Source: Nitrospirota bacterium (lineage in GTDB: Bacteria; Nitrospirota; Thermodesulfovibrionia; SZUA-242). Taken from it: 64,000 bases of DNA. Shown one piece after another: positions 5,103 to 18,473 of the stretch. The translations under genes and the position numbers were made by a program. The stretch lies in NCBI GenBank assembly GCA_016212095.1, contig JACRHH010000037.1:1-64000 (forward strand), read 5' to 3'. Position 1 is the first letter of the stretch. Every line of letters begins with the position of its first letter. The notes beneath the pieces were generated by a model. The model had not been told where the DNA came from and did no database searches. It worked only from the letters and a program-made list of their open reading frames with translations.

Positions 5103-5564
5103 CTATCCGGCAACAGCCTCCCGCTGTCCGCTGCCTGAGTTCATGCTTATAGGCTCACGCACGCCAAACCGCGACTTCTCCATGACAATCTGGAAGCCAC
5201 GCATCTTTGAGGCGTTGAAGACAAGCGGGGCCTGCAGGTTGAGCGTGACCTGCGGAGGCGTTTCATCCCTGCGGACGTTCATTATGGCCATCACCACCAG
5301 GTCTGCCGGGTCGTCCACTTCCAGAAGCTGCTTTTCCACCGGGCTTATGTCTGGGGCATATTCGGGAAAAAACAGAAACGGATCGACCACCATGAACGCC
5401 ACGGACGGATCGTCCACGGCCTGAAGCCACTTGATCGACGTATCCTTGTAGTCCATGAGGAAATACGCCTTCAGGCGGTCGAAGCCAAGGATGCCTCTTG
5501 GAAAACTGATTACCTTGTCTTCGGGAATCTCCACTTCTCCGAATCGCGTCGTATCTATCCTCAC
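5103..5564 (-). CDS. fliW: Flagellar assembly factor FliW
   Basis: The 153-residue protein matches FliW: MRIDTTRFGEVEIPEDKVISFPRG start, GILGFD...YFLMD, a middle LQAVDDPSVAFMVVDPF block and LNLQAPLVFN toward the end. FliW binds flagellin in the cytoplasm; when flagellin is exported, free FliW binds CsrA and relieves repression of flagellin mRNA (established for Bacillus and Campylobacter). It overlaps the csrA stop by an ATGA junction, so the partners are co-translated. The C-terminal tail (SGSGQREAVAG) is longer and less conserved. Confidence 0.95.
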   Translation of the reverse strand: MRIDTTRFGEVEIPEDKVISFPRGILGFDRLKAYFLMDYKDTSIKWLQAVDDPSVAFMVVDPFLFFPEYAPDISPVEKQLLEVDDPADLVVMAIMNVRRDETPPQVTLNLQAPLVFNASKMRGFQIVMEKSRFGVREPISMNSGSGQREAVAG

Positions 5565-5791
5565 CTTTTTTTCACGCTCCTTTTGATCCAGTCGAAGTCG
5601 TCGGGCTTCATCGCCGAGGCTGCCAGGTTCGCTCCGCGAACCTTTTCATACACCTCGTCCCTGTAAATCGGCGTCTCGCGCGATGCGTCTATTCCGAGCT
5701 TCACCTGTCCTTCGCGTATCTCGACAACGACAATGTGGATATTGTCGCCGATCCAGATGCCTTCACCGGACTTCCGCGTTAAAACAAGCAT
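5561..5791 (-). CDS. csrA: Carbon storage regulator CsrA
   Basis: The 76-residue RNA-binding protein begins MLVLTRKSGEGIWIGDNI and has the G-Q-V-K-L-G-I-D-A core and the R-E-x-P-I-Y-R-DE motif, all standard for CsrA. It is about 15 residues longer than Escherichia coli CsrA, with a basic tail (IKRSVKKR). A GGAGGG SD lies upstream of the ATG. CsrA blocks translation of target mRNAs by binding GGA motifs; the flagellin leader in this window has four GGA motifs, one of them in its SD. Cotranscribed with fliW. Confidence 0.96.
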   Translation of the reverse strand: MLVLTRKSGEGIWIGDNIHIVVVEIREGQVKLGIDASRETPIYRDEVYEKVRGANLAASAMKPDDFDWIKRSVKKR

Positions 5792-9750: not shown

Positions 9751-10200
9751 TTAATACTTTCCGGAAGATTTTTCCCTTATTTTTCCGTCAATTACATTAC
9801 TGTGCGTCATGCTGTTGACATGCACTGTATCGCGCGCAACACTACAGGGATCGGCTGCGTTGTTATTTTGCGACAAAGCGACGCTTGGGGGCTGTTTTCC
9901 GGTCATGCGGGCAAATGCCTCGCCCATTCCGGTTCCCTTTCGCGCGATTTCGTCGGCCATCGCATTCTGGATCATCGTTTCGTAAATATCGTTTCCCAAG
10001 CCGCCGCCCGGAAGAAAACCGCCTTCCGGCATCATTTTTGTGATTTCCTTCATAAGCTGGCTTGCAAACAGCGCCTCAAACTTCTGTCCAACCGAGTCGG
10101 TTGAACCGGCGGAATTGGCTCTGCCCAGTCTGCTTACAAGGCCATCCATTGAGGCGTTGCCGACGGTTAAAAGTCCGGCTGATGCGGGCGATGCAATCAT
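9751..10200 (-). CDS. flgJ: Rod-binding protein FlgJ (muramidase domain absent)
   Basis: The 149-residue protein carries the rod-binding domain only: KFEALFASQLMKEITKMMPEGGFLPGGGLGNDIYETMIQNAMADEIARKGTGMGEA (about 43-98). The peptidoglycan-hydrolase half found in E. coli FlgJ is missing, as in many non-enteric bacteria, so cell-wall opening must be done by a separate enzyme. It starts within the flgI stop (TAATG) and is the last gene of flgHIJ. The Ser/Asn-rich C-terminal tail (about 105-149) is not conserved. Confidence 0.92.
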   Translation of the reverse strand: MIASPASAGLLTVGNASMDGLVSRLGRANSAGSTDSVGQKFEALFASQLMKEITKMMPEGGFLPGGGLGNDIYETMIQNAMADEIARKGTGMGEAFARMTGKQPPSVALSQNNNAADPCSVARDTVHVNSMTHSNVIDGKIREKSSGKY

Positions 10201-11297
10201 TACAGAACCTCCAGTTCGGCCTTGAGCGCGCCAGCGGCCTTGAGCGCCTGAAGTATCGCGATAAGATCGCGCGGGGTAACGCCGAGCGAATTCAGCGCCC
10301 TGACAACCTCGCCAAGATTCGCGCCGCCTATTTCTATAAGGGATGCCTTTGCTTCCTTCACCTCAACCTTCGTGTCGGGTATTACCACGGTTTCGCCCTT
10401 CGGGCTAAACGGCGACGGCTGCGACACAGAAAGCGATGTTTTAATCTCCACCGTGAGATTTCCGTGCGAAAGCCCAACCGGCGACACTGTCACCCGCTCG
10501 CCAAGCACGATGGTTCCGGTCTTTTCATTTATAACCACGCGGGCCGGGATGTCGGTCTTGACTTCAACCGATTCCAGAAGCGCCAGAAACTCTATCACCC
10601 GTCCGGTGTACGACTCCGGAACCTTCACATGCACCGAGCGCGGGCCGTCCGCTTCGGCGCAGACATCGTCGAGCAGCCTGTTGATGGATTCGATGGCCGA
10701 GCGAACGGTTGTGAAATCCGGCGTGTTCAGCACGATGTCAACCGCCCTTGAATCGGCGAAGCTAACCGGAACCTCGCGCTCGATAACCGCGCCGTCCGGC
10801 ACTCGCCCCACGGTCGGATGGCCCTTGCTCACGCCTCCGGCAGCGAATCCGCCGATGGAGATCGCGCCCTGCGCCACGGCGTATGTTTCGCCGTCGGGGC
10901 CGGCAAGCGGCGTCATCAGAAGCGTTCCGCCCTGAAGGCTTTTTGCGTCGGAGATGGAGGAGACTATCACGTCCAGCCTGCTTCCGGAGCGCGCGAAGGT
11001 GGGCATGTTGGCCGTGACAACCACCGCCGCCACGTTTTTGGGCTTGAGATCGGCGTCGTTTACGTTCAGGCCCATGCGCCGAAGCATGTTGCCAAGCGCC
11101 TGCGGCATGGAGCCGGCCTTGTCGCCGGTTCCGTTTAGTCCCATCACAAGCCCGTAGCCCACAAGCTGGTTGTCGCGTATGCCGGAGATGGAGGATATGT
11201 CCTTCAGTCTCTCGGCTGAGGCGGAGGATGCCATCAAAACGGCTGCGAATACAACCGCTATTATCGCCACTGGTGGGCGTGAGCTTAGAACGGCCAT
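10200..11297 (-). CDS. flgI: Flagellar P-ring protein FlgI
   Basis: The 365-residue precursor has a signal peptide (cleavage after ASA) and mature start ERLKDISSISGIRDNQLVGYGLVMGLNGTGD, then family blocks SGSRLDVIVSSISDAKSLQGG, ...LNTPDFTT and a C-terminal L.PRDLIAILQALKAAGAL. FlgI forms the P-ring bushing in the periplasm. It overlaps flgH by 13 nt and is coupled to flgJ. Length is normal for the family. Confidence 0.97.
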   Translation of the reverse strand: MAVLSSRPPVAIIAVVFAAVLMASSASAERLKDISSISGIRDNQLVGYGLVMGLNGTGDKAGSMPQALGNMLRRMGLNVNDADLKPKNVAAVVVTANMPTFARSGSRLDVIVSSISDAKSLQGGTLLMTPLAGPDGETYAVAQGAISIGGFAAGGVSKGHPTVGRVPDGAVIEREVPVSFADSRAVDIVLNTPDFTTVRSAIESINRLLDDVCAEADGPRSVHVKVPESYTGRVIEFLALLESVEVKTDIPARVVINEKTGTIVLGERVTVSPVGLSHGNLTVEIKTSLSVSQPSPFSPKGETVVIPDTKVEVKEAKASLIEIGGANLGEVVRALNSLGVTPRDLIAILQALKAAGALKAELEVL

Positions 11298-12040
11298 ACT
11301 ACATCCAGCGCGCGGGTCATCCAGCCCGGCGACTGCCTGTCGTCGATCACTCCGTCGCCTGTGAGCGAAATCTGCGCGTCGGCAACGTAGGTTGATATTA
11401 CGGTGTTGTCGGATCGTATGTCGGAAGGACGCACGATGCCGCGAAGCACCAGTATCTGGTTTTCGTTGTTCACAAGCGTCTCCTTGCGGGCCTCAAGCAC
11501 CAGGTTGCCGTTTGGCAGCACATCCAGAACCTTGGCGGTGATGAGCGCTGTTAGTGTTCCGGCCCGCTGCGTTGCGCCCTTGCCCTTCATTTTGCTCGAT
11601 GTTGCGCCCGCCGCTTCAGGCGAAAACGCCTGATTCATCCCTAGCAGATCCTTCATGCCCAGATCGAGCGGCAGGCCCAGAAATTTAGTGAGGCTGCGGT
11701 CGTCCGACGATGTGCGTTCGGTGTCGGTGGTGGCGCTTTTTGTTCCGCTCACGCTTTCAACTACGCGTATTGTCACAAGGTCGTTGATCCTGCGCGCGCG
11801 GTTATCGTGAAAGATTCCTCCATTGCCCCGCCAAAGCGAGCCGGGCGCGGCATCCGTTTTCTCCTCCATGACCGGATAATATATCTGAGGCATAGGCTCC
11901 GCCTTAACCTGCCGCGCCTCGCGCGCTCCGCCGCACGCGGCAAGAAAGCCGCACGCGAAAACCGTTACCGCCGCGAACCGCATCGCGGCGAGCGGCATTA
12001 ATGAAAGCCGCATAGATTTTGTATTGGTAATTGTGTTCAT
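11285..12040 (-). CDS. flgH: Flagellar L-ring lipoprotein FlgH
   Basis: The 251-residue lipoprotein begins MNTITNTKSMRLSL, with lipobox LAAC after a hydrophobic segment. It has the FlgH core: GSLWRGNGGIFHDNRARRINDLVTIRVVES, a middle GNLVLEARKE and the closing V.DAQISLTGDGVIDDRQSPGWM. It forms the outer-membrane L-ring. The ATG at 12040 is chosen because GGAGG lies seven bases upstream and a sigma54-type promoter ends just beyond; a longer frame back to 12196 runs through a perfect palindrome and is unlikely. First gene of flgHIJ; no flgA, flgF or flgG adjoin it. Confidence 0.95.
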   Translation of the reverse strand: MNTITNTKSMRLSLMPLAAMRFAAVTVFACGFLAACGGAREARQVKAEPMPQIYYPVMEEKTDAAPGSLWRGNGGIFHDNRARRINDLVTIRVVESVSGTKSATTDTERTSSDDRSLTKFLGLPLDLGMKDLLGMNQAFSPEAAGATSSKMKGKGATQRAGTLTALITAKVLDVLPNGNLVLEARKETLVNNENQILVLRGIVRPSDIRSDNTVISTYVADAQISLTGDGVIDDRQSPGWMTRALDVVWPF

Positions 12041-12071
12041 GTTCGCCTCCGTTTGCTCCGCCATGGTGCAA

Positions 12072-12087
12072 AGCAATGGCGATGCCA
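12072..12087 (-). promoter_or_regulatory. Sigma54-type promoter of flgHIJ
   Basis: Minus strand reads TGGCATCGCCATTGCT (12087-12072): the GG at -24 and GC at -12 are exactly 10 bases apart, with TGGCA and TTGCT matching consensus. The start point would be near 12060, about 20 bp before the flgH ATG. This fits a class-II flagellar operon controlled by an NtrC-type activator; two such activators are in the window, but no link is shown. Confidence 0.78.
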
Positions 12088-12164
12088 GCGTTGAAACGCC
12101 AATTAACGCCCTTTGCGGGCTGGCGCGGTGGGGAAATTCGGGCTGGACGGGGAAAAATGTTCCA

Positions 12165-12195
12165 TGAAAATCGAAAGCGGCACTTTCGATTTTCA
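12165..12195. repeat. 13-bp perfect inverted repeat between flgH and hisIE
   Basis: TGAAAATCGAAAG and its reverse complement flank a 5-bp loop. It lies between two divergent genes, upstream of the sigma54 site, so it is not a normal terminator for either. It could be an operator, or a terminator for a minus-strand transcript. No T-run is adjacent on the plus strand; on the minus strand ATTTTT follows ten bases later. Confidence 0.6.
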
Positions 12196-12327
12196 AGGTA
12201 ATTTCCGACGGCGCGCTGTCCGGCGAAAGGCTGGAAACGGCATCCGTCAGTGATCGGCGGCAGATGTGCTACAATTTCCGCGCAATCAACAGCCGGCAAG
12301 GCAACAAGCAAGGCAGAGGTAAAAAAA

Positions 12328-13008
12328 TTGGCAAACGAAGAAACAATCCCGTCGCTGCGTTACGACGAAAACGGCCTAATACCGGCCATTGTTCAGGACG
12401 ACGAAAACGGCGAAATACTGATGATGGCCTACATGAACGCCGACTCCCTGCGGATGACCATCGAGACCGGCAAGACGCATTTCTGGAGCCGCTCGCGGAA
12501 AAAATTCTGGATGAAGGGCGAAACATCCGGCCATGTGCAGGAGGTTCGCAAAATCCTCTACGACTGCGACCGCGACACGCTGGTTATCAAGGTGAACCAG
12601 ATCGGCCCCGGCGCGTGCCACACCGGCCACCGGAGCTGTTTCTTCACCACGATTGACGGCGTGGAGACATCGAACGCCGCCTTCAGCGCAAACGAGGCGT
12701 ATAAAAAGCTGCCGGTTCTGGAGCATCTTCAGACTGTCATCCACGACCGGCGCTGCAATCCGAAGCCGGATTCATACGTTGCCGGGCTTTTCGCCAAGGG
12801 CCGCGAGACCATATACAAAAAGGTTGGCGAGGAGGCGGTGGAAACCGTGATCGCGGCGGCGTCTGGCGAGCGCGACGCCACAGTGCGCGAGCTTGCCGAT
12901 CTCATGTTTCATACGCTTGTGCTGATGGAGCATGAGGGGATTGCCTTGCAAGAAGTGTACGATGTGCTTTCCGGACGCACATGCAGCCTGAAAAAGAAGA
13001 CCGAATAG
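12328..13008 (+). CDS. hisIE: Bifunctional phosphoribosyl-AMP cyclohydrolase / phosphoribosyl-ATP pyrophosphatase
   Basis: The 226-residue protein fuses HisI and HisE. HisI (about 1-120) has [34 protein letters not shown], and the Zn ligands in [11 protein letters not shown]. HisE (about 130-226) has [13 protein letters not shown] and a [10 protein letters not shown] helix. They catalyse steps 2 and 3 of histidine synthesis. The start is taken as TTG at 12328, which has AGAGGT seven bases upstream; an ATG at 12250 would add 26 unconserved residues. No other his gene is nearby. Confidence 0.95.
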
Positions 13009-13018
13009 GAGGTAGTAG

Positions 13019-13366
13019 ATGAGCGCCGATTGTTTGTTCTGCAAGATCGCAAACGGAGATATTCCGGCGAAGCTGGTTCACGAGGACGACATGGCCGTTG
13101 CCTTCGAGGACATAAAGCCGGTTGCGCCGGTGCATATTCTGGTGATTCCCCGCAAGCACATCCCGACGGTTGACGACATCGAGCCGGAAGACTCGCAGGC
13201 CGTGGGGCATTTATTTCAGGTGGCTAAAAAAATCGCGTGCGAACGCGGGCTGGCCGAAAACGGCTACCGCCTCGTTTTCAACTGCAAGGCCGACGCCGGA
13301 CAGCTTGTATATCACATCCACCTGCACCTTCTGGGCGGCAGGAAGTTCAACTGGCCGCCGGGCTAA
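13019..13366 (+). CDS. HIT-family (histidine triad) nucleotide-binding protein
   Basis: The 115-residue protein starts MSADCLFCKIANGDIPAKLVHEDD, has HILVIPRKHIPT in the middle and ends with the histidine triad HIHLHLLGGR (about 99-108). This is the HinT/PKCI branch, which hydrolyses phosphoramidates such as AMP-lysine. An AGGAGG SD precedes the ATG. It follows hisIE by 10 bp and is followed 13 bp later by a radical SAM gene, so the three may be one transcript. Confidence 0.94.
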   Translation: MSADCLFCKIANGDIPAKLVHEDDMAVAFEDIKPVAPVHILVIPRKHIPTVDDIEPEDSQAVGHLFQVAKKIACERGLAENGYRLVFNCKADAGQLVYHIHLHLLGGRKFNWPPG

Positions 13367-13379
13367 CAATATAATTGCC

Positions 13380-14363
13380 GTGGGCGACAGTTCCCCAAAC
13401 CGCCCGAATTATCTGAAATTTCTCGACAGGCACGATCCGGCTGGCAGAATTGCGGCAATGCTGCGCCTGCTGGACGGCTGCCGCGTATGTCCGCGAAACT
13501 GCGGCGTTAACCGTCTGAAAGACGAGCGCGGGTTCTGCCGCACCGGGCGGCTTGCGCTTGTGGCAAGCCACTGCGTTCACCACGGCGAGGAACCGGCAAT
13601 TTCCGGCTCGCGCGGCTCAGGCACGATATTTTTCGGCAACTGCAACCTGCGCTGCCTTTTCTGCCAAAACCGGCAGATTTCGCAGGGCAACGACACGGGC
13701 GAGGAACAAGGCCCGTGGCAGATTGCCGACATGATGCTCGAACTCCAGCGCAAGGGAGCCCACAACATCAACTTCGTTTCGCCCACCCATGTTGCGCCGC
13801 AGATGGCCGAGGCCATAGTTGTTGCGGCGGGGCGCGGCCTGCGCATCCCGATAGTCTACAACTCGAACGGATACGAATCGGTTGAGATGCTGCGGCTTCT
13901 GCGCGGCTTTGTGGACATCTACATGCCCGACATGAAGTATGGCGATGACGAATCCGCCGAACTCTGCTCCTTCGCGCCGGGATATGTTCATTCAGCGCAG
14001 GCCGCGCTGGTTGAGATGCGGCGGGCTGTTGGGCATCTGAGGCTTGACGGCATGGGCGTTGCTCGAAACGGGCTGCTGGTTCGTCACCTCGTGCTGCCAA
14101 ACGATATGGCCGGAAGCCGGGATGTGCTTCGGTTTATCCGTAGGGTGATTGGCCGCGAAACCTCAATTTCGCTGATGTCGCAGTATTTCCCCAGCCACAA
14201 GGCGGCGGGCCACCAGCTTTTGGGGCGGCCCGTCCGGGCCGGGGAATATGCAGGGGTGCTCGATGAGATGGACAGGCTTGGCCTTGACGGCTGGATTCAG
14301 GAGCTTCAAAGCAGCGCGTATTACCGTCCCGATTTCGAAGGGGATCATCCGTTCGAGGGGTAG
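13380..14363 (+). CDS. PflX-like radical SAM protein (COG1313 type)
   Basis: The protein (327 residues from the GTG at 13380) has an N-terminal CRVCPRNCGVNR cluster-like motif, then the radical SAM motif C-x3-C-x2-C in FGNCNLRCLFCQNRQIS. Further blocks are NINFVSPTH, IVYNSNGYE and DIYMPDMKY, all characteristic of the PflA-related PflX family. It should bind a [4Fe-4S] cluster and S-adenosylmethionine. The physiological substrate of this subgroup is not established; no pyruvate-formate-lyase gene is nearby. The frame overlaps the HIT gene only if an upstream ATG is used, so GTG is preferred. Confidence 0.88.
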   Translation: MGDSSPNRPNYLKFLDRHDPAGRIAAMLRLLDGCRVCPRNCGVNRLKDERGFCRTGRLALVASHCVHHGEEPAISGSRGSGTIFFGNCNLRCLFCQNRQISQGNDTGEEQGPWQIADMMLELQRKGAHNINFVSPTHVAPQMAEAIVVAAGRGLRIPIVYNSNGYESVEMLRLLRGFVDIYMPDMKYGDDESAELCSFAPGYVHSAQAALVEMRRAVGHLRLDGMGVARNGLLVRHLVLPNDMAGSRDVLRFIRRVIGRETSISLMSQYFPSHKAAGHQLLGRPVRAGEYAGVLDEMDRLGLDGWIQELQSSAYYRPDFEGDHPFEG

Positions 14364-14392
14364 TAAACACGCGCTGCTTGCTGATATTGCCG

Positions 14393-15535
14393 CTACATGC
14401 CCCTGAAGATTATCTCCAGCGTAATCAACGCATAAGAGGTCGTCAGCACCGGATCCTTTTCCCACCACCGGCCCGTGGGATTCACCCATGAGCCTTCCTC
14501 GCCGTTCTGAAGCGACATTAGCCTGAGGGCGAGATCCTTGCGCCAGTTCACGGTTTTGCCGTCTTTCAGCGTAATATCATCCGCGCCATACGCGCTCAAG
14601 CCCTTGGCCATCGTATGAAAGTAGTAAAACAGGCCTTCCTGTCCCATGCCCGGATTTTCGGCAAGCGTATAGTTCTCGCCCAGCCATTTGTAAACCGCCT
14701 GAACTCGCGGATCGTCCTTCTTCAGGTCGGCGTAAATGTAGCTTAGAAGTCCGGCGTAGCTCATGCTACCGTATGAGCGAAGCGCCTTTTTTCCGGATGG
14801 CAGCGTAACCTCGCCAGCCTTGCTCTCGTCCTGGGCGTAGACAAATCCGCCCTTGTTCGCGGCATCGTCTGCCACCCACTCGTGCGGATTGTACTGCGGC
14901 AGGTTCTGGCAGCGCTGGATGAAATTGATGGCCGCTTTCCAGTCGAGCTGTTTCAGGTTTTTATCGGCCTTGTCCTGATCGAGATACCTGGAATAATAGA
15001 GCGCCTCAAGGCCGATGTACGTGTTCGACATGTCTGTGTGTCCGGTTTTGTTATAGCCGATTCCGCCCTCGTTCTGAAGCGAAGTGACGTATGCGCGGGC
15101 GTTTTTCAGCGCCGCGTCGTAAGACGGATCGCGCGCCATCAGAAGCGCCATCATGGCGATGGATGTGTTGTAGTTTTCCATCGGCGTGGCGGTTTTCCTT
15201 GAATATATGCCGCCGTCGGGCTGAACATTCGACATCAGATACCTGTAGCCGTTCTGAACAATCTGCGGCTTTTCGGCCATGTACCTGCCCGATGGCTCTC
15301 CCATGAAGGCTGTGAGCACAAGGGATGACAGCGCCGGATGCTCCGGCTGCGACCATGATCCGTCCGGATTCTGTTTCTTCTCCAGCCATTTCAGCCCCTT
15401 CTCGATGGCATTGGAGATTTCGAACTTCAGCGATACGTCCCGCTTTTTACCGATAACATCCTTATCGGCGGCGAATGCGGCTCCGCAGAGCGCCACCGAC
15501 AACAAAACCACCAGAAACGATACTGTTTTCTTCAT
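14393..15535 (-). CDS. Secreted alpha/alpha-toroid (prenyltransferase/squalene-oxidase repeat) protein
   Basis: The 380-residue protein has a signal peptide (cleavage near AFAA) and at least five repeats of the terpenoid-cyclase toroid type, each pairing a Gly-rich turn (QNPDGSW, PDGGIYS, EGGIGYN, GQEGLFYY, EEGSWVN) with a helix such as S-L-V-L-T-A. The DxDD acid motif of squalene-hopene cyclases is not seen, so cyclase activity is doubtful; a periplasmic binding or scaffold role is possible. It follows a YdjY-domain protein by 20 bp and shares its operon. Secreted proteins of this fold are common in Planctomycetes-like genomes with no assigned function. Confidence 0.82.
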   Translation of the reverse strand: MKKTVSFLVVLLSVALCGAAFAADKDVIGKKRDVSLKFEISNAIEKGLKWLEKKQNPDGSWSQPEHPALSSLVLTAFMGEPSGRYMAEKPQIVQNGYRYLMSNVQPDGGIYSRKTATPMENYNTSIAMMALLMARDPSYDAALKNARAYVTSLQNEGGIGYNKTGHTDMSNTYIGLEALYYSRYLDQDKADKNLKQLDWKAAINFIQRCQNLPQYNPHEWVADDAANKGGFVYAQDESKAGEVTLPSGKKALRSYGSMSYAGLLSYIYADLKKDDPRVQAVYKWLGENYTLAENPGMGQEGLFYYFHTMAKGLSAYGADDITLKDGKTVNWRKDLALRLMSLQNGEEGSWVNPTGRWWEKDPVLTTSYALITLEIIFRGM

Positions 15536-15555
15536 GTTTTATCTCCTGCGCGTGA

Positions 15556-16314
15556 TTACTTTTTCACGGCTTCGATGGTGATCGACGCCTTTGTGCCGGG
15601 AACCGGAACCTTGTCGGTGTTCACAAACAACATCGTATCGTCGCCGCCTTCGGGCATGGGGTTGTCGATGATTGCGGCGGGATCGTGGAATATCGCAACC
15701 AGCGAGCGCTCGATCTGCGCCATCAGACGGCCTTCGACAATCTTTGAGCCGGTGAACACCCAGTTCATTCTGGCCATCGGCTTCTTGTTCTTCATGTTCA
15801 TAACCAGTTCCTCGATGCGCGCCTTGTTTGACTTGCCGCCGTCCTGCCATTCCACACTGATGACAACCGGATCGCCTTCAGGCGCGCGAGGATCGCCCTG
15901 ATAATCGAGCGGGCGGCCGCTTTTCATGCCGAGCAGCACAAGCGCAACCTGCAAGTCATACGGCGAAATCGCTGTGCGGAGAAGGCTTTCATGGAGCTTG
16001 CCGTGATGCGCGACGATGGCATACTCAAGGCCGCCCTCCTTCATGTTGAACTCGCCATCGAACCTGATGGCTCTGGCCTTGGGGTCTACCTCGACCGCGC
16101 CCAGCCGTATGTTGCCGTTTTCGAGCATTTTTATGGCGCTCGGCATCTGAGGATATGAATCGGGCGGAAGCGGCGTTTCTATCGTCACGCCCGGAGGAAG
16201 CTGATCCTCCGGTGGTTGAGCCCAGACATCGCCGGAAAGCGGCCAGGCAATTGCGGCTAGCGCCAGCATTGCCAGCATTGCAGGAATAATACGAATACGT
16301 TTGAATCCGACCAT
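15556..16314 (-). CDS. Secreted YdjY-domain protein
   Basis: The 252-residue protein has a signal peptide (cleavage near VWAQ) and a YdjY-like domain: VEVDPKARAIRFDGEFNMKEG, then YAIVAHHGKLHESLL, SPYDLQVALVLLG and a C-terminal FHDPAAIIDNP. The HGK-HESLL plus ALLLLG pattern is how I recognise the family. Its biochemical role is unknown. AGGAGG lies upstream of the ATG at 16314, which rules out the longer frame to 16368. It is first in a two-gene unit with the toroid protein; the long 5' region contains a structured element. Confidence 0.82.
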   Translation of the reverse strand: MVGFKRIRIIPAMLAMLALAAIAWPLSGDVWAQPPEDQLPPGVTIETPLPPDSYPQMPSAIKMLENGNIRLGAVEVDPKARAIRFDGEFNMKEGGLEYAIVAHHGKLHESLLRTAISPYDLQVALVLLGMKSGRPLDYQGDPRAPEGDPVVISVEWQDGGKSNKARIEELVMNMKNKKPMARMNWVFTGSKIVEGRLMAQIERSLVAIFHDPAAIIDNPMPEGGDDTMLFVNTDKVPVPGTKASITIEAVKK

Positions 16315-16462
16315 TATTGCCTCCTGAAAAAAGAAATTACCGGCGGCATTCAGCGCCGCGCATTCCATTGCACGATTGATGTGCCTATCATTCTAATGGA
16401 TAACGAATGATCGGACAAGCGGGTGAAAACGAATTTCAGGCTTTGCCTCGTGACGCTTTACC

Positions 16463-16490
16463 TTGACATTGCCTGCCATGATGCTATGCT
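16463..16490 (+). promoter_or_regulatory. Sigma70-like promoter upstream of structured RNA
   Basis: TTGACA (16463-16468, perfect), 16-bp spacer, TATGCT (16485-16490, four of six). Transcription would begin near 16497, a few bases before the folded element at 16506-16605. No coding gene starts between here and flagellin. Confidence 0.5.
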
Positions 16491-16505
16491 TGAATTCAAG
16501 AACGC

Positions 16506-16605
16506 GCGAGGCACAAAAAAAGGGCGCCCGGCGGTTCGCCTGGGCAGGTTTCAAGGCGAGAGCCGAGTTTCAGCCCTTTCCAAGGGTCGTTAGACCCAGC
16601 CTCGC
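16506..16605 (+). ncRNA. Structured RNA candidate, family not recognised
   Basis: One hundred bases fold into a nested set of perfect helices. P1 is GCGAGGC/GCCTCGC (16506-16512 with 16599-16605). P2 is AAAGGGC/GCCCTTT (16519-16525 with 16573-16579). Inside P2 are a GCCCGGCG hairpin (16526-16545) and a GGC-GAGA-GCC hairpin with a GNRA-type loop (16555-16564). GGGTC-GTTA-GACCC (16584-16597) lies between P2 and P1. A sigma70-like promoter lies just upstream on the plus strand. Read on the minus strand, the same segment ends in a hairpin plus T7 (16521-16515), so it could instead be a leader/terminator for the YdjY operon. It does not match the riboswitch families I can recall. Confidence 0.5.
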
Positions 16606-16691
16606 CGTTTGCATGTCCTGATGAATCTTCCACTTCTTTTCGACTCTTGCCATGCGCCTGAATCCCGTCATTCAAGTTTTTCATCCGTTTC

Positions 16692-16718
16692 TAAAGTTAT
16701 TGAACAAGCCTCCGATAA
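16692..16718 (+). promoter_or_regulatory. Sigma28 (FliA) promoter of fliC
   Basis: TAAAGTTA (16692-16699), 11-bp spacer, TCCGATAA (16711-16718): an almost perfect sigma28 promoter. The start would be near 16728, giving a flagellin leader of about 140 nt. Confidence 0.9.
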
Positions 16719-16753
16719 ATACCTTAAGTGGAAGACCGGCAAACGGGCAGTAG

Positions 16754-16860
16754 AAAGGAGGCGACAGGAAACATCACGGGCCCAAAGCTTTAACGCCACG
16801 TATATCGCGGGATTTTAATCCCTGAGAAGCAGCGCATGGAAGCGCATAGTTACATGGAGG
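16754..16860 (+). promoter_or_regulatory. fliC leader with GGA motifs (candidate CsrA-binding region)
   Basis: The leader has GGA at 16757, 16767, 16838 and 16856, the last inside the SD (CATGGAGG) ten bases before the start codon. A GGGATT/AATCCC palindrome lies at 16809-16822. CsrA binds GGA in pairs, one usually at the SD, and the window encodes CsrA and FliW, so translational control of flagellin is expected. This is inferred by analogy with Bacillus hag. Confidence 0.55.
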
Positions 16861-16869
16861 TAACGCATC

Positions 16870-18420
16870 ATGGCAATGACCATCAACACCAACCTGTTCG
16901 GTTTGAACGCGCAGAGGAATCTCCGCAAGACCGAAGCCCCCCTTATGACCGCAATGCAGCGGCTCTCTTCCGGCCTGAGAATCAACTCGGCCAAGGACGA
17001 CGCCGCCGGTCTCGCAATCGGAACCAGAATGTCCCGCCAGATCATCGGACTCTCCGTTTCGATCAGAAACGCAAACGACGGCGTGTCGTTCGCCCAGACC
17101 GCTGAAGGCGCGATGGAAGAAATGACCACCGCCATGCAGCGTATCTACGAACTTTCCGAGCAGGCGGCCAGCAACAACACATCAACCGACCGTTCAAACA
17201 TGAACGTTGAAGTTCAGGAGCTTATCGCCGAGCTTAACCGCGTCGTGAACCAGACCAGGTTCAACGGCGAGAAGTTCCTCAACCAGGCCAAGAGCATCGA
17301 TGTGCAGGTTGGCGCGGATGTGAAGGAAACAATCAACATTTCGACGTCCAACGTGTCTCCGAACACCTTCGGCGTCGCAACGAACTATTCCGACACATGG
17401 ACAGGCACGGACATAGCGAAGTCCGCCGGACTTGCGATGCTTTCCACGGGAATCGCTGCATCCGCCACGATCAACGGCAAGGACATCGGAGACGCAATTA
17501 CAAGCGCCACGGCGTTCAAGAACAACAGCCAGAACATTGTCAACCGCATTAACGACTACACAAGCGAGCACGGCGTAACCGCGTTCAGCTACGGCAACTC
17601 GGTTGTTGCCAACACAGCCATCGCAGCCATCACGCTCACATCCGCCGCGGCAGCCCAGTATGTTGATTCCGGATACCTGACAATCAACGGAACGCAGGTG
17701 GGAAGCTTCGTGGCAGCGGCAGCCGGAGGCGCGGCAAGCGCCGATACCGCCATGAGCAACATGATCTCCGCCATAAACGCGAAATCGGCTACAACCGGCG
17801 TGGTTGCATACTCGATGGACAAGTCCGATTTCACGGTTTCGAGCGTCGGTCAGGCAAGCAGCCTTCTTGTTCTTACAAACACCACCGGAGCGGCAATCAG
17901 CGTCTCGATGAACTCGGCGGTCACAAACGGAACCGCGTTCACAACGCTTCTTGCCTCGGCCACCATGTCGGTTTCCGCCGGACAGAACGGCAAGATCGTT
18001 TTCAACGGCAACTTCGGCGCGGGCTCGACAACCTTCGACGGAACCGCCACCGGCGCAGCCTTGGGCATTTCGTCCTCGGCGTCAACCATCGCGCTTACAG
18101 ACAAGTCCGTGAACGAGATCAGCGTGACCAATAACGCGAACGCCAATATCGCCATTCTTGTCACCGGCAAGGCGCTCGACACCCTCAACAGCCAGCGCGC
18201 GACGCTCGGCGCGAAACTGAACAGGCTCGATTCGACTATCAGAAACCTCGACAACGTTCGCGAGAATCTCGAAGCAGCCAAGTCGAGAATCATGGACGCG
18301 GACTTCGCCGAGGAATCGGCAAAGATGACGAAGATGATGATCATGCAGCAGGCTGGTGTCTCGGTTCTTACCCAGGCGAACACCATCCCGCAGAACGTGC
18401 TTGCCCTGCTCAGGGGTTAA
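16870..18420 (+). CDS. fliC: Flagellin
   Basis: The 516-residue protein has the conserved N-terminus (MAMTINTNLFGLNAQRNLRK...RLSSGLRINSAKDDAAGLAI) and C-terminus (AKSRIMDADFAEESAKMTKMMIMQQAGVSVLTQANTIPQNVLALLRG) that form the D0/D1 filament core. The centre (about 180-430) is a variable, Ala/Ser/Thr-rich surface domain. There is one flagellin gene in the window. It is preceded by a sigma28 promoter and a GGA-rich leader and followed by an 11-bp hairpin before flaG. Exported by the flagellar type III system with FliS as likely chaperone. Confidence 0.98.
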   Translation: MAMTINTNLFGLNAQRNLRKTEAPLMTAMQRLSSGLRINSAKDDAAGLAIGTRMSRQIIGLSVSIRNANDGVSFAQTAEGAMEEMTTAMQRIYELSEQAASNNTSTDRSNMNVEVQELIAELNRVVNQTRFNGEKFLNQAKSIDVQVGADVKETINISTSNVSPNTFGVATNYSDTWTGTDIAKSAGLAMLSTGIAASATINGKDIGDAITSATAFKNNSQNIVNRINDYTSEHGVTAFSYGNSVVANTAIAAITLTSAAAAQYVDSGYLTINGTQVGSFVAAAAGGAASADTAMSNMISAINAKSATTGVVAYSMDKSDFTVSSVGQASSLLVLTNTTGAAISVSMNSAVTNGTAFTTLLASATMSVSAGQNGKIVFNGNFGAGSTTFDGTATGAALGISSSASTIALTDKSVNEISVTNNANANIAILVTGKALDTLNSQRATLGAKLNRLDSTIRNLDNVRENLEAAKSRIMDADFAEESAKMTKMMIMQQAGVSVLTQANTIPQNVLALLRG

Positions 18421-18438: not shown

Positions 18439-18469
18439 ACGGGGAGAGCTGAAATAATGCTCTCCCCGT
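18439..18469. terminator. Hairpin after fliC
   Basis: ACGGGGAGAGC and GCTCTCCCCGT make an 11-bp perfect stem with a 9-base loop between the fliC stop and flaG. No T-run follows, so partial termination or mRNA 3'-end protection, letting flagellin message accumulate above the downstream genes, is more likely than a complete stop. Confidence 0.6.
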
Positions 18470-18473
18470 AAAC

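Follow-up and report, generated by a model that had tools for sequence, protein, structure and literature searches.

We describe a structured RNA of about 116 nt, with high probability a stand-alone transcript of its own as judged from sequence, that is predicted on the plus strand of the 64,000-nt stretch of DNA analysed here (the window). It most likely represents a so far unlisted RNA family found in three genera. These are the source genus and the other two genera of the same taxonomic family (G002 and G001), with one genome per genus and 3 in all. Comparison of the three copies shows a common predicted structure, strand and putative promoter, independence of the neighbouring genes and presence in all three genera; transcription, the ends of the RNA and protein binding are what we infer beyond this.

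Position and predicted fold of the element

The interval 16463-16620 is situated between two divergent genes, a secreted-protein gene on the minus strand and a flagellin gene on the plus strand. Its features are as follows.

16463-16490, plus strand: putative sigma70-type promoter TTGACA-N16-TATGCT with extended -10 TG (10/12 match; same -35 and spacer in both homologues)
16497-16612, plus strand: predicted structured small RNA, ~116 nt (fold z-score, homologues in G002 and G001, covariation)
16500-16512, plus strand: closing helix P1, 5' arm GAACG, bulged C, GCGAGGC (pair probability 0.79-1.0; 4 double-changed pairs in 3 sequences)
16519-16525, plus strand: P2, 5' arm AAAGGGC (pair probabilities; G-C to A-U change in G001)
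16526-16572, plus strand: P2 interior, of variable sequence, for which a long imperfect stem-loop is the favoured fold (folding; alignment)
16573-16579, plus strand: P2, 3' arm GCCCTTT (helix seen in the sequence; pair probabilities)
16579-16582, plus strand: junction strand UCCA (identical in 3/3 sequences; partly paired in G002 and G001)
16584-16597, plus strand: P3 hairpin GGGUC-GUUA-GACCC with a GNNA loop (pair probability 1.0; conserved GGGnCGnnAGnCCC)
16599-16610, plus strand: P1, 3' arm GCCTCGC CGTTT (pair probabilities; covariation)

The P1 core GCGAGGC/GCCTCGC pairs 16506-16512 with 16599-16605, and GAACG/CGTTT lengthens the helix. Pair probability is near 1 for P1, the base of P2 and P3. 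The 5' end of the RNA is placed from the promoter and its 3' end from the closing helix; no clear intrinsic terminator was seen on the plus strand of the window copy. The A7 at 16515-16521 corresponds to a T7 on the minus strand.

All five helices named in the first-pass annotation, which was made by eye (P1, P2, the GTTA-loop hairpin, a GCCC..GGGC hairpin and a GAGA hairpin), were found in the sequence at the coordinates it gave. Two of them, the small hairpins inside P2, are present as sequence but do not belong to the preferred fold: with a pair probability of ~0.08 they form a minor fold, and a single long imperfect stem is favoured in their place, in both homologues likewise.

The plus strand of 16497-16612 folds at -56.3 kcal/mol (z -4.47 versus shuffles), the minus strand at -54.1 kcal/mol (z -3.56). 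Across the window, 2 of 1162 tiles of the same size reach -56 kcal/mol or lower, while the z-score of the element is good, not extreme, some window tiles scoring lower. These tiles, together with the GC content of 62%, would fit hairpins arisen by chance in intergenic DNA rich in GC, or a dispersed repeat. However, neither DNA searches nor searches with a single-sequence model detected a second copy in the source genome, and two other genera possess homologues that combine compensatory changes with the same promoter (see below). Such an origin is therefore extremely improbable.

Homologues in two other genera

Direct DNA search of 61 relatives yielded, the window aside, just chance matches of at most 36 nt. 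A covariance model built from the window sequence alone (R1) gave a full-length match of equal length in G002, with 17.8 bits and an E-value of 1.94, which is not significant by itself. The match is convincing because of its surroundings: the promoter starts with CTTGACATTG as in the window (the TTGACATTG promoter start is the same in both copies), GAATT and an identical TCCAAGGGTCG are common to both, P1 is rebuilt from different bases and the copy has a marked fold of its own (z -5.33). A two-sequence model of the window and G002 copies (R2), for which two P1 bulge bases were dropped from the window row to keep the helix in register, then recovered the G001 copy, unseen by the model, at an E-value of 2.2e-4. 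This third copy (z -3.72) displays the same three-way junction. The RNA is present in 3/3 genomes of the taxonomic family, and in 37 non-family genomes the R2 search returned nothing further at E<=5.

Searches over a wider range gave no additional member. The single-sequence model, applied across the class (200 genomes) and to a phylum sample, produced weak matches that were short or located in coding DNA (an mlaA-like gene). A three-sequence model (R3) was run over 230 genomes of the class, over 396 genomes sampled from the phylum and, with loose filters, over 40 of the class; it retrieved the three members only. Every weak match that we inspected lay in or across ORFs or a tRNA, or had no conserved P3 and promoter. 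Viral contigs carrying the motif TCCARGGGNCGNNAGNCCC provided 94 chance stretches, and the model run on 80 of them gave at best a truncated alignment of 24 bits. Within the genomes searched, one taxonomic family accounts for every copy of the RNA.

The first-pass annotation had proposed a covariance search for compensatory changes in P1 and P2, and such changes are indeed present among the homologues. In the three-sequence alignment, which was fitted to the structure so that pair counts are flattered, double changes with pairing kept occur in 6/20 pairs (four in P1, one in P2 and one in P3). In total, 95% of its cells are paired and its covariation score was reached by none of 500 shuffles. 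When partner registers were slid, pairing fell to 38-52%, with 0-1 double-changed pairs. The same layout was obtained from RNAalifold's own prediction on this alignment, with 9 double-changed pairs, and from each of the three sequences folded alone.

Promoter and strand

The TTGACA promoter that had been proposed to point into the element on the plus strand was recovered as TTGACA-16-TATGCT. Each of the 3 members has a TTGACA box separated by 16 nt from a -10 box (TATGCT, TAGGAT or TAATAT; 10/12 each), in the same orientation and immediately 5' of P1, the end of the -10 box being 15, 12 and 9 nt away from the invariant GCGAGG of P1. In all three, folding energy is lower for the sense than for the antisense strand (-56.3/-54.1, -54.8/-52.1 and -50.5/-44.0). 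The homologues, having the same promoter and compensatory changes, support the earlier reading of a plus-strand small RNA. As to the 3' end, G001 has T7 directly after the 3' arm of P1 and G002 has T6 13 nt past P1, with no clear intrinsic terminator adjoining P1 in the latter.

Read in the opposite direction, the element had been taken for a riboswitch-like leader with a transcription terminator, serving the ydjY-like operon. On the minus strand of the window copy a T7 does come after P2, the ydjY-like gene begins ~300 nt downstream, and in 3/3 genomes a gene is found on that side in that direction. Nevertheless, this hairpin with its T-run is a trait of the window copy and is not conserved: both homologues are devoid of the minus-strand T-run, and the terminator or riboswitch reading is therefore removed. 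Moreover, the genes that would be read into (ydjY-like, yicC and dus) are unrelated and have nothing in common, the ydjY-like protein is missing from G001 and G002, the three shared promoters face the opposite way and P1 would span the terminator. We consider a minus-strand leader largely refuted and give it hardly any probability.

Genomic context

On the minus strand, the ATG of the secreted-protein gene has its first base at 16314, ahead of a prenyltransferase/squalene-cyclase-like gene. Labelled YdjY before, it matched no Pfam family even at E<=1, and we call it ydjY-like. Flagellin starts at 16870 on the plus strand. The G002 copy, on contig C60, is flanked by yicC (with gmk) and a gene of unknown product, and flagellin is located on C108 with two tRNA genes upstream in place of the RNA. 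The G001 copy has gcvPB-like and dus genes as its neighbours. No flagellin was found in the G001 genome, nor was the ydjY-like protein found to have a relative in either G001 or G002. Since neighbours differ among the genera and G001 has neither flagellin nor a ydjY-like relative, the RNA is independent of either neighbour. At the level of sequence, this comparison shows the apparent links to flagellin and to a riboswitch to be accidents of place.

The functional tie to flagellin suggested by the first-pass annotation, be it as a cis-acting flagellin leader or as a flagellum-specific small RNA, had its basis in location: the element precedes flagellin by 260 nt and shares its strand. Against it, there is a conserved sigma28-like promoter at 16694 that belongs to flagellin itself, the G002 flagellin has tRNA genes in its promoter region and the RNA on another contig, and G001 contains the RNA without any flagellin. 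This tie is largely refuted as well, and very unlikely. Long stretches of the region 3' of P1 that are complementary to the flagellin leader (e.g. CCATGCGC at 16650-16657 with GCGCATGG at 16832-16839) were dismissed, as their length is that expected by chance.

The flagellin locus has traits of its own. The sigma28-like promoter reads TAAAGTT-N12-TCCGATAA (16694-16721, plus strand) and has the same spacing in G002. The flagellin mRNA leader (16832-16864, plus strand) comprises two GGA-loop hairpins, GCGC-AUGGAA-GCGC and GUUAC-AUGGAG-GUAAC, the second one over the SD; both are kept almost letter for letter in G002. The window also contains csrA (PF02599) and fliW (PF02623) at 5103-5791 on the minus strand. 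By analogy, this leader together with csrA and fliW resembles the CsrA-FliW-flagellin control described for Bacillus hag. Directly past the flagellin stop (18441-18470, plus strand) there is a perfect hairpin GGGGAGAG...CTCTCCCC without a T-run; G002 has a similar GGGGAGAG...CTCTCCCC past its flagellin, followed by TTTTT. Between flgI/flgH and flagellin, 10200-16870 contains hisIE-, HIT-, radical SAM-, prenyltransferase-like and ydjY-like genes. The G002 equivalent, beside flgF-G-A-H-I, consists of a phosphoglucomutase-like gene and two tRNAs.

Distribution of conserved residues

Residues identical in 3/3 sequences gather at the junction: GCGAGG/CCnCGC in P1, AAGGRC/GYCC in P2, UCCA, and GGGnC-GNNA-GnCCC, the P3 loop being GUUA, GACA and GAUA in the three members. 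Outer P1, the P2 tip and the adjoining genes vary. Apart from the three conserved helices, no uninterrupted invariant stretch is longer than UCCA, therefore there is no conserved antisense seed; no conserved unpaired run longer than 4 nt was found among the three sequences.

This bears on the possibility that the element is a trans-acting antisense small RNA, pairing with mRNAs through its loops or A-rich strand, P1 holding the ends, perhaps with the help of a chaperone. A stand-alone gene of ~115 nt with its own promoter would suit such a role, as would the T-runs that follow P1 in G001 and G002, the A-rich J1/2 of the window copy and the lineage-restricted spread. On the other hand, the contiguous conserved unpaired stretch never exceeds 4 nt, and the P2 tip and J1/2 vary between genera. 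We hold antisense action to be unlikely, if the more serious of the competing explanations. A protein-binding or tertiary-structured RNA is favoured instead, because conservation is found at the junction and in the GNNA hairpin and there is no conserved seed. The protein-binding reading relies solely on where conservation falls in three sequences, and targets and seeds can change fast.

Comparison with known RNAs

Rfam models gave no match at gathering score; at E<=10, over 16300-16900, the one hit was to a human lncRNA model, which is implausible and does not fall within the element. The earlier statement that no recognised RNA family is involved thus stands. No described RNA of such a kind was found in a literature search.

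In layout, the element is reminiscent of 6S RNA (RF00013), which is likewise stand-alone, with a sigma70-type promoter, a closing stem, a long terminal stem and a small junction hairpin on the 3' side. However, it is ~70 nt shorter and has no large open bubble. The 6S model has no match in 16300-16900 at E<=10, nor in the homologues, and the three-sequence model had no match on 25 loci with 6S RNAs. Since two ordinary 6S RNAs are present elsewhere in the source genome, the element is not 6S. The two genes, L082 (G000:C13:2499-2682) and G000:C29:26110-26268, score above cut-off with 78 and 49 bits; among the relatives searched, genomes with at least two 6S matches are common.

CsrA-sequestering RNAs of the CsrB/RsmZ type are also small and stand-alone, and the genome has csrA, fliW and flagellin-leader hairpins resembling CsrA sites. 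This identity was rejected, the plus strand of 16497-16612 containing no GGA anywhere. Riboswitches with terminators (ZTP, fluoride, c-di-GMP-I and others) resemble the element in their compact junction fold and, for the window copy, in the minus-strand hairpin with T7. Unlike them, the element lacks a common downstream gene, and none of its three copies matches an Rfam riboswitch at E<=10. The flanking pairs ydjY-like/flagellin, yicC-gmk/unknown and dus/gcvPB share no gene or pathway, which argues against a cis-regulatory riboswitch, and the restriction of T7 to the window copy argues against a conserved expression platform. With its own predicted promoter, a conserved covarying fold and context-independence, the element very probably belongs among stand-alone structured small RNAs, which are a class and not a family.

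Discussion

The explanation we prefer, and regard as reasonably probable in its entirety, is a plus-strand small RNA folded into a three-way junction, the core of which binds a protein or holds a tertiary fold. The RNA would have a housekeeping-type promoter of its own (16463-16490), and its transcription would start just 5' of the closing helix P1. It would then fold into P1, the long stem P2 and the short P3 hairpin with its GNNA loop, leaving a junction core that may bind a protein or keep a fixed tertiary fold. In this form it could act in trans, either as an RNP component or as a protein-binding regulator. Taken by itself, protein binding as the way of working comes close to an even chance, somewhat short of it. 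A bolder version, that of a lineage-specific housekeeping RNP RNA of an undescribed kind, offering a conserved three-way-junction protein site in every genus of the taxonomic family regardless of motility, is rather improbable.

What began as a guess made by eye has become a small RNA family for which a consensus and a covariance model are available and a strand and a putative promoter are assigned. It offers a clean target for approaching the role that a lineage-specific structured RNA may have in a poorly studied bacterial group.
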